DNA of 40,248 nucleotides from Verrucomicrobiota bacterium (GCA_016209255.1 JACQWL010000591.1:1-40248); one strand, 5' to 3'. Counted from the stretch's first letter, positions 12,699 to 27,197 are shown. Notes: a model not told the origin generated them from the sequence alone. Translations and numbers: made by a program.

Positions 12699-12727
12699 GG
12701 GGCGGTAAACTCGCCGGAGGCGAGTAA

Positions 12728-12837
12728 ACGCTCAACGCTTAACTTTTAACGCTCAACGCTCAAGGGGTGAATACCGAAGGGAATCGCTGGACGAAGAAGT
12801 GCTGCACTTGAGCGTTAAGCGTTAAATGTTGAGCGTT
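12728..12837. repeat. Inverted pair of degenerate 7-nt repeat arrays (pair A1)
   Basis: acgctca-acgctta-actttta-acgctca-acgctca (12728-12762) and inverted tgagcgt-taagcgt-taaatgt-tgagcgt (12809-12836). Confidence 0.9.
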
Positions 12838-12847
12838 TGCCCGGCCC

Positions 12848-13536
12848 TCATAGTGGCTTCGCCGCGGAAGGCGTCGGAACTCCAGGAACGGATGGTTTGG
12901 TTTCTGCGGCTGTTTTCTCTGGCGTCGCCTTCTGCCAAGCCTGCCAAACCGCGAGCGCCAGAATCGTGGCGAGGCCGACGCTGGCGGGCACGAGCCACGG
13001 TTCCCGCTTCCTCGTGGCACGGGCTTTCCAGCCCGTGGGCGCGGAAGACACGGGCTGGAAAGCCCGTGCCACCGTTTCGAAGCCCAGCAAGCCGCGTATA
13101 CGTTGCACAAACGCATCCGTGGCATCGCCCCCCGGCAGCCGGGTTCACTGCACGGCCAGAAACGACTCGGGCACGTCGGCCTCGGTCTCCTTGGTGGCAT
13201 CGATGCACACCGGCAGGAGAAAAGCTTTCGAGCGTTCCATCAGATGCGTGCGCCGGTCGGCCAGCCGCCACTCGAGTCGGAAGTATCCCTCCGCCGTGCC
13301 TGTGTGCTGGCCGAAATGACGGGCACGAACAGCGCGCACTCCTTGATTTGTTTGCGGATCGACGCATCCCACGCGTCCCCGCCGCGCAACTCGCTCTGAT
13401 CGAACCACACCTCCACACCGGCCGCGCGTAGCGCAGCGCAAATGCGTCGCGCCGCGTCCGCGTCCTGGGACGCGTAACTCAGGAAGACGGCGCCGCCGGC
13501 GGCGCCGGAACTCGCCGGAGGCGAGCAAGCGCTCAA
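12848..13536 (-). pseudogene. Degraded TIR-domain protein: frameshift near 13291-13296 and in-frame TGA near 13144, with former membrane segment downstream
   Basis: AVFLSYASQDADAARRICAALRAAGVEVWFDQSELRGGDAWDASIRKQIKECALFVPVISASTQA, then in another frame AEGYFRLEWRLADRRTHLMERSKAFLLPVCIDATKETEADVPESFLAVQ*, then TRLPGGDATDAFVQRIRGLL...; parallels the adjacent intact TIR gene. Confidence 0.85.
13014..13072. repeat. Perfect 24-bp inverted repeat (REP-like)
   Basis: GTGGCACGGGCTTTCCAGCCCGTG (13014-13037) / CACGGGCTGGAAAGCCCGTGCCAC (13049-13072). Confidence 0.92.
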
Positions 13537-13638
13537 CGTTTAACGCTGAACGCTCAACGCTCAAGTGGTCCTCCTTTCCGGATGGGCTGCGTGGTTCTCT
13601 CATTGAGCGTTAAAAGTTAAGCGTTGAATGTTGAGCGT
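13529..13638. repeat. Inverted pair of degenerate 7-nt repeat arrays (pair A2)
   Basis: gcgctca-acgttta-acgctga-acgctca-acgctca (13529-13563) and tgagcgt-taaaagt-taagcgt-tgaatgt-tgagcgt (13604-13638). Confidence 0.9.
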
Positions 13639-13650
13639 TTTCTTCGGCGC

Positions 13651-15756
13651 TCATTTCTTCGCCGACTGCTCCTTGAGCATCCGCGCCAGCGTCTCGCGCG
13701 CGACCTTGTATTCCTCGACGCACTTCAATTCCACCAGCATCCGCCTAAATCGCGGATCCTCGCGCACCGGATCCCATCGCACATCCCAATACACGGTTCC
13801 ATTCCATCCTCGTTGCGGCGCTTGCTTCATCGGCATAAGCGCCTCGTCGAATCGCCCGAGCGTCGCCAACAACAGCCGGCGTTTCCGGCTCTCCGGTGGC
13901 CAGGCTGCCATCAATTCCGCTGCGTATGCCGCCGCTTCATCGGCCAGATTTGCCTGCCGCAAGACTTGGATGGCGGAGGCGTCTCCGTCCCATCTCGGCA
14001 CGCGATTGAAGTCCTTTCGGATGGATCGGGCCACACTCACGGCCTCGTCCGTACGACCGAGGCCGAGGAGAATCCAAGCTTGAACTCCGCGGCCCTGGAT
14101 GAATTCCGGCCTGAGCGCCAAGGAACGTTCGATCACAGCAAGTGCCTCGCCATATCGACTTACACACGCCAGCAGCAAAGCATGGTCGCGCGTCGCGTTG
14201 AAGGAAAGCGGATCGAGGCCAATGGCACGCTCGATCGCCTTCAGGGCCAAATCCAGACGCCCGAGTTCGCTTTGCAACAGACCGTGCCAGTGATGAGTAA
14301 CGGCATCGTTGGGATTGATCTTCAAGGCTTGCTGGAAGTGCTGTTCCGCCTCCACCAGTCGGCCCTCGCGAAACGTGACATAACCCAAAACCGCATGCGC
14401 TTCCACGAGCGTCGGGTCCAAGGCATACGCACGCTGCGCGTTCCGTCGGGCCTGCCCCAAATCCTCTCCAATGTCGGCGAAACCATCCAAATTGCGATAC
14501 ACCGCCCGCGTTACGCAGACCAGCCCCAAGCCGGCGTGCGCCGGTGCAAACTCCGGATCGAGCGCGAGTGCTTTCTCAAAAGACGCCTGCGCCCGCGCAA
14601 ACCCCTCATTCCGCAAACTCCAGAAATGCCGCCCTTCGAGCACGAGCCGGTGCGCCTCGGGGTTGACCGTTTTGGCCACACGTGACGCAGCACCCAGCGT
14701 GAGCTGGAGGTTCTGGGCGATCAGTCCGACGATTTCATCCTGCACCGCCCAGACATCCTTCAACTCGCGGTCAAACGTCTCCGACGCCCAGACCTGAAAT
14801 CCATCCGCCGCGTTGATGAGTTTTGCCGTGATGCGCACGCGACCGCCCGATTTCTTCACGGTACCCTCAACGAGGTAGGCAACGCCGAGTTTTTGCGCGA
14901 TCTCCGGGATCGGCACCAGCTTGCCCTTGAACGAAAACGCCGAAGTGCTCCCGGCCACGCGCAGGCCCGGCACCCGGCCGAGGACGTTGCTCAGCTCCTC
15001 GCTGATGCCGTCAGAAAAATACTCCGCTTCCTTGTCATCGCTCAGATTCTTGAAGGCCAGCACAGCGATGGATTTCGCTATCGCGAAATCCAGAGGCGGC
15101 TTCGCCGCGGCGGGGGAAGGCGTGGCCGCGGCGGAGTTGGGGGAAATCGACGTTGCAGGCCGCAGGGCTATAAACGCTACCAGTCCCACGGCGACCATGC
15201 CGAGCGCGCCGACGACCCACATCCAGCCGGGCACGCCCCGCTTCGTAGCGGAATGCGTGCGCGTTTCGCCTTCGATCACTCGTTCCGAGTCCTCCAAACG
15301 CTCACGCGTTCGGCTACCCACGTCCGGGTCGAGCAATCTGCCCACCCGCGCTACGAATGAGGAAGGCGTTTCGCCGCCAACCAGTCGCGTCCATTGCACG
15401 CTGAGAAATGATTCCGGCACGTCGGCCTCACCTTCTTTGGTCGCGTCGATGCACACCGGCAGGAGAAACGCCTTCGATCGCCCCATCAGCCGTGTGCGCT
15501 CGGCCGCGAGCAGCCACTCGAGCCGGAAGTATCCCTCAGTGCGCGCCTGCGTCTGCGCCGAGACGATCGGTACGAACAACGCGCAGGTCTGAATCTGTTT
15601 CTTGATCTTCGCGTCCCACGCATCCCCGCCGCGCAGCTCGCTCCGATCGAACCACACCTCGATGCCGTCGGCGCGTAATGCCTCGCAAATCTTACGCGCG
15701 GCGTCCGCGCCTTGGGACGCATAGCTCAGGAAGATGGCGTTGGACGGCGCGCTCAT
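13651..15756 (-). CDS. TIR domain - transmembrane helix - TolB-like domain - TPR repeat protein
   Basis: TIR: AIFLSYASQGADAARKICEALRADGIEVWFDRSELRGGDAWD; TM: VPGWMWVVGALGMVAVGLVAFIAL; TolB-like: SIAVLAFKNLSDDKEAEYFSDGISEELSNVLGRVPGLRVAGSTSAFSFKGK; then TPRs. ATG at 15756. Confidence 0.85.
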   Translation of the reverse strand: MSAPSNAIFLSYASQGADAARKICEALRADGIEVWFDRSELRGGDAWDAKIKKQIQTCALFVPIVSAQTQARTEGYFRLEWLLAAERTRLMGRSKAFLLPVCIDATKEGEADVPESFLSVQWTRLVGGETPSSFVARVGRLLDPDVGSRTRERLEDSERVIEGETRTHSATKRGVPGWMWVVGALGMVAVGLVAFIALRPATSISPNSAAATPSPAAAKPPLDFAIAKSIAVLAFKNLSDDKEAEYFSDGISEELSNVLGRVPGLRVAGSTSAFSFKGKLVPIPEIAQKLGVAYLVEGTVKKSGGRVRITAKLINAADGFQVWASETFDRELKDVWAVQDEIVGLIAQNLQLTLGAASRVAKTVNPEAHRLVLEGRHFWSLRNEGFARAQASFEKALALDPEFAPAHAGLGLVCVTRAVYRNLDGFADIGEDLGQARRNAQRAYALDPTLVEAHAVLGYVTFREGRLVEAEQHFQQALKINPNDAVTHHWHGLLQSELGRLDLALKAIERAIGLDPLSFNATRDHALLLACVSRYGEALAVIERSLALRPEFIQGRGVQAWILLGLGRTDEAVSVARSIRKDFNRVPRWDGDASAIQVLRQANLADEAAAYAAELMAAWPPESRKRRLLLATLGRFDEALMPMKQAPQRGWNGTVYWDVRWDPVREDPRFRRMLVELKCVEEYKVARETLARMLKEQSAKK

Positions 15757-15875
15757 TGCGGATTGCGGATCGAGGATTGCGAATTTGCAAACAGCGGAAG
15801 CCCGAAACGTTTTGTGTTTTCGACATTCGTCCACTCGCGACCCAACCCTGTCACTCGTCCCTCGCGGCGCAGCCG

Positions 15876-15938
15876 CGTAGCGTAGCTGAGGAAGATGGCG
15901 CGACCGGCTGCGCCGGAACTCGCCGGAGGCGAGCAAGC
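15876..15938 (-). pseudogene. Remnant of a third TIR-gene 5' end
   Basis: ACSPPASSGAAGRAIFLSYAT matches the 5' region of the degraded TIR gene (ACSPPASSGAAGGAVFLSYAS), then unrelated sequence. Confidence 0.7.
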
Positions 15939-16204
15939 GCCAACGTTTAACTCTGAACGCTCAACGCTCAAGTGGTCCCCTTTCCGAGTTGGGCGCATTT
16001 CCGGGTTGTGGGTTCCGCTGCTCCCAAATGCCTGGCATTGCTGGCTGTGGAGGGGCTTTACGCCCCGACAGGCCGGCGCATATCGTGCGTCGGGGCATAA
16101 AGCCCCTCCCACAGTCGAACCGACAACCGGGAGATGCGCCTTTCCGAGTCCGCTGCTTGGTTCCCTCATTGAGCGTTAAATGTTAAAAGTTGAACGTTGA
16201 GCGT
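15937..16204. repeat. Inverted pair of 7-nt repeat arrays (pair A3), interrupted by a ~150-bp foldback insertion
   Basis: Arrays 15937-15970 and 16170-16204 (tgagcgt-taaatgt-taaaagt-tgaacgt-tgagcgt). Confidence 0.88.
15990..16138. mobile_element. Nested foldback element flanked by 11-bp direct repeats
   Basis: CCTTTCCGAGT at 15979-15989 and 16139-16149; outer stem ggcgcatttccgggttgtgggttc / gaaccgacaaccgggagatgcgcc; inner stem CTGTGGAGGGGCTTTACGCCCCGAC / GTCGGGGCATAAAGCCCCTCCCACAG. Confidence 0.75.
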
Positions 16205-17232
16205 TATTCAGCCGTGCGGAGCGTCGGGCCGTCGACCCAGTGGGCGGGGATCGTGGTCGTCGACGGCCACTCGGGGATCCCCGTTTCGTTGCGCTGCAAC
16301 TGCCCGATGAGCAGCTCCGTGGCGCGCGCGCCGAGCGTCCGCGGCTGGAGGTCGAGCCCGGCACACGGGCGCGTTTTCATCAGCACGTTGAGGCACACGA
16401 AACCGTGCGTCGCCGGCAGCTCCGCGCCGCAGCCTTCCATCCAGTCGATCGCCACGGTGTTGTGGCCGACCACGACGTCGGGCTTGTGACGGCGGAACCA
16501 GCGCACGAACTCCTCCTTCGCGAACGCGTCCACAATCAGCGGCGGCACCGGCTTGATCGCGGCATGGCTTTCCTGAAACGCCCGGAAGGCCGCGCCCCAG
16601 CGATACTGGAGCCGTTCGTCAGCGTGTTTTTGCAGAAACAGCCCCGGCCGCCGGTAGCCGAGGGCGGCGAGTCGCTGCAGGGCGGCGAGCAGCGAACGGT
16701 AATGGTCGGGACAGACCGAGTGGAGCGCGGGCCGCTCGATGATGTAGTCGGTGTAGATGCCGGCGAAGCGCGTCCAGTCGAGGTTCGACAGGTCGGGTTC
16801 GTCCCAGGCCGGCAGCAGAATCACGCCGTGGATGCCGCGCGCCTGCAGGATCGCGTCGAGCCGTTGGACCGATACGCCGGCGTGGCCGACGGAGAATTTC
16901 TCGATCTTGAAACCAAGCTCGACGGCGCGCGCTTCGGCGCCCACCACCAGCTCGCGGTGATACCGGGCGGCGTGGGCGGGCCGGTCGGGTTCGTTGAAAT
17001 CGATTGCGGCAAGCACGCCGTGAAACGCCGTGCCGCGCGAGCGACGCAGCTCGGACATCAGCGCGCCGGCGAGCGGATTGCGGCGGTAGCCGGCTTCGCG
17101 CGCGGCCTGGCGCACCCGCTCGGCCGTGTTGGGATCGACGCGCTGCGAGCCGCGCAGCGCATCGGAGACGGTCGTGCGCGAGAGGCCGAGGACGCGGGCA
17201 AGGGAGCGCAGGGTGGGAGCGGGGTCGGCCAT
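16204..17232 (-). CDS. LacI-family transcriptional regulator
   Basis: LRSLARVLGLSRTTVSDALRGSQRVDPNTAERVRQAAREAGYRRNPLAGALMSELRR. Confidence 0.93.
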   Translation of the reverse strand: MADPAPTLRSLARVLGLSRTTVSDALRGSQRVDPNTAERVRQAAREAGYRRNPLAGALMSELRRSRGTAFHGVLAAIDFNEPDRPAHAARYHRELVVGAEARAVELGFKIEKFSVGHAGVSVQRLDAILQARGIHGVILLPAWDEPDLSNLDWTRFAGIYTDYIIERPALHSVCPDHYRSLLAALQRLAALGYRRPGLFLQKHADERLQYRWGAAFRAFQESHAAIKPVPPLIVDAFAKEEFVRWFRRHKPDVVVGHNTVAIDWMEGCGAELPATHGFVCLNVLMKTRPCAGLDLQPRTLGARATELLIGQLQRNETGIPEWPSTTTIPAHWVDGPTLRTAE

Positions 17233-26222: not shown

Positions 26223-27197
26223 CTACCGGTGCTTTCTTTCCCACGCGAAAAGATACTGCTGGGCGAGTCCGGCGAGCGGGCCGAAGTGCGCGCGGCCAAA
26301 TTGCGCGAGTTGCGCCGGGCGCCAGCCGTCCAGGCCGTACCGCCGCGCCAGCGTTTTCAGAATCCACACGTCCACGGGAAACGCCTCCATCCGGCCCGCC
26401 CCGAAGAGCAGCACGCAGTCGGCGACCTTTTCCCCTACGCCCGGCAGCTCGCAGAGCCGCGCCTTCGCGGCGGCGTAGGGCAGCGTTTCCGTTTCCTCGA
26501 GCCAGCCGGGCCGGGCGGCGAGGAATCGGGCTGTCTCCGCGATGTAGCGCGCGCGGAAACCGAGCCGGCAGGCGCGCAATTCAGGCTCGGGAATCTCTGC
26601 GAGTTCGGGCCACGTCGGCAGCCGGTGGAGTGAAGCTGAAGGCGGAGAGCTGAGAGCTAAGGGCTGAGGGCGGAGAGCGGAGGGCGGAGGGCTGAGAGTT
26701 GAGGGCGGAGAGCGGAGAGCGGAGAGCGGGTTGAGAGTTGAGAGCGGAAGCAGCGGCGCGCCGTGCCGTTCGGCGAGGAGTGCGACGATTTGCTTGATCT
26801 GGACGATCTGCTTCGTCGCGCTGCAGAGGAAGCTGAGCAACGTCTCGCCGAACGGCTGGCGCAAAATGCGCAGCCCGCGAAACTCCGCCAGGCACCGGGC
26901 CAGGTGCGCATCGCTGCGCCACGGCAGGGCGTCGGTCAGGGCGGCGAAATCGCGGTCAACACCGAGATACGTTGTGAGCGCGCTGGCCGTGGCGATCGCG
27001 TTTGTCGCGGGAGCGCTCCATTCGATGCGTCCGTCGGCGTCGAGCCGGAGGCCTACGACAAGATGCGCCCATACCCCGGACCATGTGCCGTCAGGTTCAC
27101 GGTGCCAACGAAAGGCCTGACCGCCATCGAGCGTTTCAGCGAGCACCTCGCCACTGAGTGCCGGCACACCGGCGAGCGGTTGCCAGGAGTCGCTCAA
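26223..27197 (-). CDS. OGG1-type 8-oxoguanine DNA glycosylase / HhH-GPD protein
   Basis: GGQAFRWHREPDGTWSG..., RGLRILRQPFGETLLSFLCSATKQIVQIKQIVALLAERHG, LGFRARYIAETARFL, LCELPGVGEKVADCVLLFGAGRMEAFPVDVWI. TTG start overlapping the upstream stop is proposed. Confidence 0.85.
   Translation of the reverse strand: MSDSWQPLAGVPALSGEVLAETLDGGQAFRWHREPDGTWSGVWAHLVVGLRLDADGRIEWSAPATNAIATASALTTYLGVDRDFAALTDALPWRSDAHLARCLAEFRGLRILRQPFGETLLSFLCSATKQIVQIKQIVALLAERHGAPLLPLSTLNPLSALRSPPSTLSPPPSALRPQPLALSSPPSASLHRLPTWPELAEIPEPELRACRLGFRARYIAETARFLAARPGWLEETETLPYAAAKARLCELPGVGEKVADCVLLFGAGRMEAFPVDVWILKTLARRYGLDGWRPAQLAQFGRAHFGPLAGLAQQYLFAWERKHR
26635..26750. repeat. Degenerate 7-nt tandem array (GCTGAGA/GCGGAGA, ~16 units plus one partial) inside the glycosylase CDS
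   Basis: gctgaag-gcggaga-gctgaga-gctaagg-gctgagg-gcggaga-gcggagg-gcggagg-gctgaga-gttgagg-gcggaga-gcggaga-gcggaga-gcgg-gttgaga-gttgaga-gcggaag. Confidence 0.95.

Follow-up and report, generated by a model that had tools for sequence, protein, structure and literature searches.

Degenerate heptamer repeats that form convergent inverted pairs between genes were described in Xanthomonas in 2015, with GGGAATC or, more generally, (GGGANTN)n as the repeated motif (PMC4692102). In the GGGANTN units positions 1-4 and 6 are fixed, and the arrays, most often made of 4 units, are dispersed and 89-93% intergenic, lying some 28 nt from the neighbouring open reading frame, with 70-75 convergent inverted pairs per genome and no assigned function (PMC4692102). 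They are G-rich with a potential for G-quadruplex formation, occupy sites mostly common to the species next to random classes of genes, and conservation of their spacers is not described; both the excess of heptamers and proposals of polymerase slippage are discussed in the same work (PMC4692102). Other heptamers include the short tandemly repeated repetitive (STRR) sequences and GGGGA(C/T)T heptamers of cyanobacteria, together with the heptad-repeat stem P6b of the Nostoc trnL intron (PMC4476775), and the TAACTGA direct repeats of 2-6 units found in Beggiatoaceae, Cyanobacteria and Bacteroidetes (PMC4679880). The present analysis deals with three inverted pairs of heptamer arrays that punctuate a TIR locus in a 40,248-nucleotide stretch of DNA (the window) from a Verrucomicrobiota bacterium (GCA_016209255.1, JACQWL010000591.1:1-40248). 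Each of the three pairs is probably one copy of a non-coding element of about 100 bp, made of an arm, a spacer and an inverted arm, which as a whole has been multiplied and dispersed over many intergenic sites. Judged against the open-licence literature, they are best read as a new family, or variant, of dispersed hairpin repeats with heptamer arms in Opitutaceae, although subscription journals may hold an earlier description.

Arrays were detected in the window by a scan scoring heptamers in register and by Tandem Repeats Finder. Three convergent pairs of 7-bp arrays were recovered (Table 1), built from a unit AACNNTN that mostly reads AACGCTC, and Tandem Repeats Finder placed the starts of the period-7 arrays at 12727, 12811, 13530, 13606, 15941 and 16169. 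Every pair occupies a gene junction: that of a GntR/LacI-type gene and a degraded TIR gene for element 1, of the degraded TIR gene and the TIR-TPR gene for element 2, and of the TIR-TPR gene and lacI for element 3. The original prediction, according to which each junction of the TIR locus holds an array and its inverted partner with 4-5 units per arm, is borne out by both methods, as is the overlap of the lacI stop codon TAA with an array unit, and the phasing of the units clearly exceeds that of shuffled sequence, with 6 arrays versus 0 in 100 order-1 Markov shuffles. The proposed unit, ACGCTCA or ACNNNNA, rightly pointed to degenerate heptamers, its form being refined here to a fixed AAC at positions 1-3 and a T at position 6.

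The genome holding the window (G000), a metagenome-assembled genome (MAG) of 85% completeness, contains about 40 elements, surveyed on contigs C1-C477 and sampled beyond C477 by pattern searches only. A three-unit AACNNTN pattern gave 145 matches in this genome versus 7 when the pattern was reversed as a control; for a pair pattern with a gap, the counts were 45 and 0. The typical element, 97-112 bp long, consists of a 5-unit arm, a spacer of 28-45 nt with weakly conserved ends, often AAGTGATGAACC...TTCCGAACTT, and an inverted 5-unit arm. Over 495 units from fetched loci of the host genome and its relatives, mainly the congener G003, positions 1-3 read A, A and C (98, 97 and 95%) and position 6 reads T (90%), position 4 being mostly G/T, position 5 mostly C/T and position 7 mostly C/T/G. 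Neighbouring arrays within 300 bp are convergent in 29 of 33 cases, divergent in two and on the same strand in two. Among 29 pairs with at least 3 units per arm, five units represent the mode for each arm (16/29 and 17/29), and AACGCTC is the outermost unit in 17/29 and 20/29 and the innermost in 17/29 and 17/29, the middle units being variable, which agrees with the earlier statement that terminal units are the best conserved. When spacers of similar length are compared, their mutual resemblance exceeds that of shuffled spacers (z=5.9).

Copies located at unrelated loci align over their full length of about 99 bp with 80-86% identity, their flanks being devoid of homology, e.g., in the loci L032/L037 and L032/L038. 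Similarly, a compound element enclosing a nested hairpin is common to window element 3 and L048 (415-686), with about 78% identity over 268 bp, and the 120-bp flanks of the two align no better than shuffled sequence. The sufC/sufB gap measures 111 bp with an element in the host genome versus 36 bp without it in G003, where SufC and SufB are 94% and 92% identical to their counterparts. At lolC/lolD, an element is present in the host genome, and the gap amounts to only 8-13 bp, with overlapping ends, in many relatives. Since the element is absent from these orthologous junctions of relatives, it inserts or spreads, and gain is favoured at lolC/lolD because the overlapping gene arrangement is found in many lineages. 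Both junctions take several repeat families, as other relatives hold different hairpin repeats there (G018 and G005 at lolC/lolD, G001 at sufC/sufB). The earlier suggestion that the arrays are possibly mobile gains support from the copies with unrelated flanks and from the element-free junctions revealed by comparing orthologous sites with and without arrays, and the search for inverted pairs in other genomes and loci, proposed beforehand, shows that they recur across the host genome and its relatives.

With respect to mechanism, the element would be copied as a unit, by a transposition-like process, to many intergenic sites, usually just past stop codons, leaving no detectable target duplication. 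The order and number of units within the arms would then vary, probably via 7-nt slippage or unit exchange. In 33 elements, no target-site duplication was found (exact flank match of 0.12 bp versus 0.21 for shuffled pairs, p=0.84), nor was any palindrome found to extend into the flanks. A miniature inverted-repeat transposable element (MITE) with target duplication is rejected on both grounds; one MITE-like trait is present, namely 35-bp arms serving as terminal inverted repeats on a short dispersed element with whole-element copies.

Several observations weigh against such copying. The orthologous junctions are compared at the level of species, which leaves room for loss of the element in relatives at sufC/sufB; many elements are decayed or reduced to single arms; the copies linked to TIR genes are not independent and were partly inherited through gene duplication; and a search for a mobilising enzyme or autonomous partner found none. 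Among the neighbouring proteins checked with Pfam for an autonomous transposon, only a Y1_Tnp fragment was detected (L043, 10199-10633), more than 2 kb from the arrays and on the far side of a TIR gene. A search for synteny around the LacI region found no clean empty site for the window locus: L113 has kept the TonB and GntR/LacI orthologues and lacks the arrays, and neither the LacI nor the transporter genes located downstream turned up in the loci retrieved.

The Xanthomonas family is the nearest relative of these elements in architecture only, because G-tracts are absent from the AACNNTN consensus: neither this unit nor its complement NANNGTT contains the GGG or CCC tract expected of a G-quadruplex. 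In both families, degenerate 7-bp units with a fixed core follow one another in register, and convergent intergenic pairs are numerous (29/33 convergent and 40/42 intergenic in Opitutaceae). Unlike its counterpart, the Opitutaceae family is not G-rich, has a mode of 5 units, shows spacer ends related between copies, differs in its sites between species at the two junctions tested, and is strongly linked to TIR-type genes. The earlier label of an undescribed class does not hold, given the convergent GGGANTN pairs published in 2015 (PMC4692102). The cyanobacterial repeats share degenerate 7-nt units, which in P6b form both sides of the stem, whereas STRR sequences are tandem arrays and the Nostoc P6b is a single site within a group I intron. 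The TAACTGA repeats also form short intergenic heptamer arrays, with related split units, but these are direct (1 inverted case in 170), lie upstream of start codons and lack hairpin pairs. Repetitive extragenic palindromic (REP) sequences and bacterial interspersed mosaic elements (BIME), which go with REP-associated tyrosine transposases (RAYT), are likewise short dispersed intergenic palindromic repeats without detected target duplication; no heptamer arrays occur near the 20 RAYT loci examined, and a RAYT-cognate REP is rejected, as none of the 20 Y1_Tnp loci of G000 and G003 carries an array. Several Y1 transposase (RAYT-like) genes of this genus (L192-L211) are flanked by GGGGTCA / TGACCCC repeats. 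An array of clustered regularly interspaced short palindromic repeats (CRISPR) is rejected too, the 7-bp units running head to tail without spacers.

Degenerate heptamer arrays in inverted pairs are now known from at least two distant phyla, with unrelated sequences. The Opitutaceae family offers a testable case, owing to its fixed 5+5 architecture, its common spacer ends, its element-free orthologous junctions and its link to duplicating TIR/SIR2/nSTAND genes.

The relatives with many arrays belong to the genus and family of the window itself. The strict pair pattern matched 17 of the 388 genomes of the phylum, some of them with other unit variants, and a match in G129, from the same family, is identical to an element of record L224, an Opitutaceae MAG, which places the window in Opitutaceae. 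Convergent 4-5 + 5 pairs occur, among the loci listed, in the Opitutae records L215, L224, L239, L269, L274 and L289. Viral contigs hold such sequences as well: L356 carries one complete element, and near-identical single 5-unit arrays, followed by AAGT and devoid of an inverted partner, occur in L339 (2093, 6404, 7905) and L338 (2906), sense-oriented and 15-85 nt upstream of start codons. The single arrays possibly represent a phage leader element, and phages are a possible vehicle of the family, because these contigs hold an element or single arms.

On either strand, the folding of single elements is much stronger than that of shuffled sequence (z -4 to -9.7), as expected of any inverted repeat, and their two arms may pair into a long hairpin, as a single strand or as a cruciform. 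Had selection acted on the hairpin of each element separately, or had inverted copying produced it site by site, an arm should match its own partner best. No such preference for the own arm over arms of other elements was found by identity tests (p=0.17-0.43) or by wobble-aware duplex energies of own versus swapped arms (z=-1.05 and -0.5), and a compensatory hairpin is rejected on these results. The arms of an element consequently behave as two arrays following one shared unit grammar, which, more than any arm-specific matching, would maintain their ability to pair.

According to gene positions from a simple gene caller, 40 of the 42 elements are intergenic, the median distance being 28 bp to the 3' end of a gene and 93 bp to the 5' end. 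Their neighbours include core genes such as sufBC, lolCD, and those for a release factor and a phosphatidylserine decarboxylase; in contrast with the initial view of the arrays as a feature of the TIR locus, the family is not tied to it. Nevertheless, of the 30 elements on contigs C1-C477, 10 have one of the 23 TIR genes at a distance of at most 150 bp, versus 0.25 expected. These cases are not independent, because some elements were duplicated together with the gene, as in L031 and L045, which have in common both the end of a TIR-TPR gene and the arm next to it. In the clusters L034 and L050, TIR, SIR2-TIR, nSTAND1 and toxin-antitoxin genes alternate with elements, the modules of L034 comprising TIR-TPR, a ParE pair, nSTAND, 23S-IVP, SIR2-TIR and a PIN pair, most of them separated by elements. 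The elements build up around multi-copy TIR, SIR2-TIR, nSTAND and toxin-antitoxin genes, whose edges they occupy, and the likely reason is that modules were duplicated together with the adjoining element.

This arrangement raises the possibility that the elements are borders of immune-gene modules. They would delimit mobile gene cassettes, and site-specific or homologous recombination between them would insert, duplicate and swap the modules, as in an integron without IntI, an explanation we regard as rather unlikely. Apart from the two clusters, homology between SIR2-TIR paralogues of the host genome and G003 begins at an arm about 40 nt upstream of the start codon, with none on the far side of the arm; in L060 and L130, 520 bp with 92.9% identity lead up to the arm, past which the two are unrelated; the mutual homology of window elements 2 and 3 stops at the outer end of the right arm; and 18 of 424 homology ends among paralogous stretches fall within elements on both partners, versus 0.08 after random shifts of the elements. 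This random-shift control, however, leaves a confound, since the elements sit at gene edges, where homology between paralogues tends to stop, and for this reason a border function is treated only as a rival. The genes of the clusters are moreover of mixed orientation, single elements also occur in core operons, and no recombinase is linked to the elements. The bolder version, in which the hairpins would delimit the cassettes of a recombination system that works without integrase, its TIR, SIR2-TIR, nSTAND and toxin-antitoxin modules being inserted, duplicated and truncated at the arms by a putative recombinase acting on the heptamers, is unlikely; if true, Opitutaceae would have a turnover mechanism for immune genes. 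Real module borders would explain how islands of immune-like genes are built.

A role at the RNA level, also suggested earlier, would have the arrays act as leader, processing or bidirectional termination/anti-termination signals and appears equally unlikely. The strong foldability on both strands and the position of the elements past stop codons would suit it, as would the sense-oriented half-elements upstream of start codons, three in L339 and one in L338, which resemble the TAACTGA leaders (PMC4679880). However, bacterial elements yield no positive evidence of it: junctions with elements (25 co-directional, 7 convergent and 6 divergent) resemble the background (159, 32 and 35), and own arms pair no better than swapped ones. 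An intrinsic terminator is rejected, with 4 sites in the region versus 4.3 expected; one marginal match overlaps the end of element 2 and none spans a whole element. Rfam gave no plausible match to a known RNA family, only sub-threshold microRNA-like matches to a separate hairpin at 13014-13072. The earlier description of a hairpin element that is neither a standard terminator nor CRISPR is accordingly upheld.

Neutral slippage, in which heptamer microsatellites would expand wherever 7-nt slippage is favoured and template switching would create the inverted pairs, seems quite improbable. Plain tandem AACGCTY arrays do occur in many phyla (Brasilonema, Limnohabitans, Sulfurovum and Prevotella in a scan of GTDB genomes), and slippage has been proposed for other heptamers (PMC4692102), but the fixed 5+5 architecture, the conserved spacer ends and the degenerate rather than perfect units do not fit, and same-species copies at unlinked sites align across the spacer and both arms with unrelated flanks, which argues against slippage as the sole cause.

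Integron attC-like recombination sites are very improbable: the heptamers GCTCAAC/GTTGAGC do fit the outer core sites RYYYAAC/GTTRRRY in consensus and orientation (GCTCAAC...GTTGAGC), toxin-antitoxin cassettes adjoin and integron integrases exceed the cut-off in 17 of 57 genomes of relatives, but no integrase over the TIGR02249 cut-off was found in G000, an 85% complete MAG, the integrase loci of relatives lack AACGCTC pairs (G031 having an ordinary GCCTAAC...GTTAGGC attC site), the inner units are direct repeats of the outer one instead of inverted L''/L' boxes with extrahelical bases, and the association with IntI (p=0.007) disappears when only genomes of 4.5 Mb or more are counted (p=0.35). 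In relatives, L081, L091 and other loci carry integron integrases that exceed the family cut-off.

Table 1. Elements and neighbouring genes in the window; units per arm are those of the unit-scoring scan.
Feature	Coordinates	Strand	Remarks
Element 1, whole	12727-12837		
Element 1, left arm	12727-12761	+	5 heptamers: AACGCTC AACGCTT AACTTTT AACGCTC AACGCTC
Element 1, spacer	12762-12809		48 nt
Element 1, right inverted arm	12810-12837	-	4 heptamers
Degraded TIR gene	13076-13503	-	matched twice, in different frames, with one internal stop; between elements 1 and 2
Element 2, whole	13528-13639		
Element 2, left arm	13528-13562	+	5 heptamers
Element 2, spacer	13563-13604		42 nt
Element 2, right arm	13605-13639	-	5 heptamers
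TIR_2 + TPR protein	13651-15756	-	701 aa; between elements 2 and 3
Element 3, whole	15942-16205		
Element 3, left arm	15942-15969	+	4 heptamers
Element 3, spacer	15970-16170		201 nt, holds the nested hairpin repeat
Nested inverted repeat in element 3	16049-16109		GGAGGGGCTTTACGCCCCGAC...GTCGGGGCATAAAGCCCCTCC; same nested layout in L048
Element 3, right arm	16171-16205	-	5 heptamers; last unit overlaps the lacI stop codon
lacI	16204-17232	-	stop codon TTA/TAA at 16204-16206, within the last unit of element 3

The spacer of element 3 owes its length to the second hairpin repeat located inside it. Immediately before all three left arms of the window lies a small palindrome CTCGCCGGAGGCGAG (12708-12724, 13509-13525 and 15917-15933), and similar palindromes AACCCGCC/GGCGGGTT flank or interrupt other elements. 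A perfect 24-bp inverted repeat GTGGCACGGGCTTTCCAGCCCGTG at 13014-13072, between element 1 and the degraded TIR matches, probably represents a further dispersed hairpin repeat. The segment 15880-15940, located between element 3 and the intact TIR-TPR gene, is a leftover of the start of a second TIR gene, and short TIR remnants of this kind adjoin elements in L050 and L034. Other heptamers occur in the window, such as a third type, (ATTGCGG)n, right at the start of the TIR-TPR gene (15755-15785), and a separate array family at 26634-26745 with about 16 copies of GCTGAGA/GCGGAGA units and no convergent AACGCTC partner. In the relative G006, GTTGAGA units similar to the latter are oppositely oriented, i.e., divergent, and make up the arms in a family of repeated hairpins.

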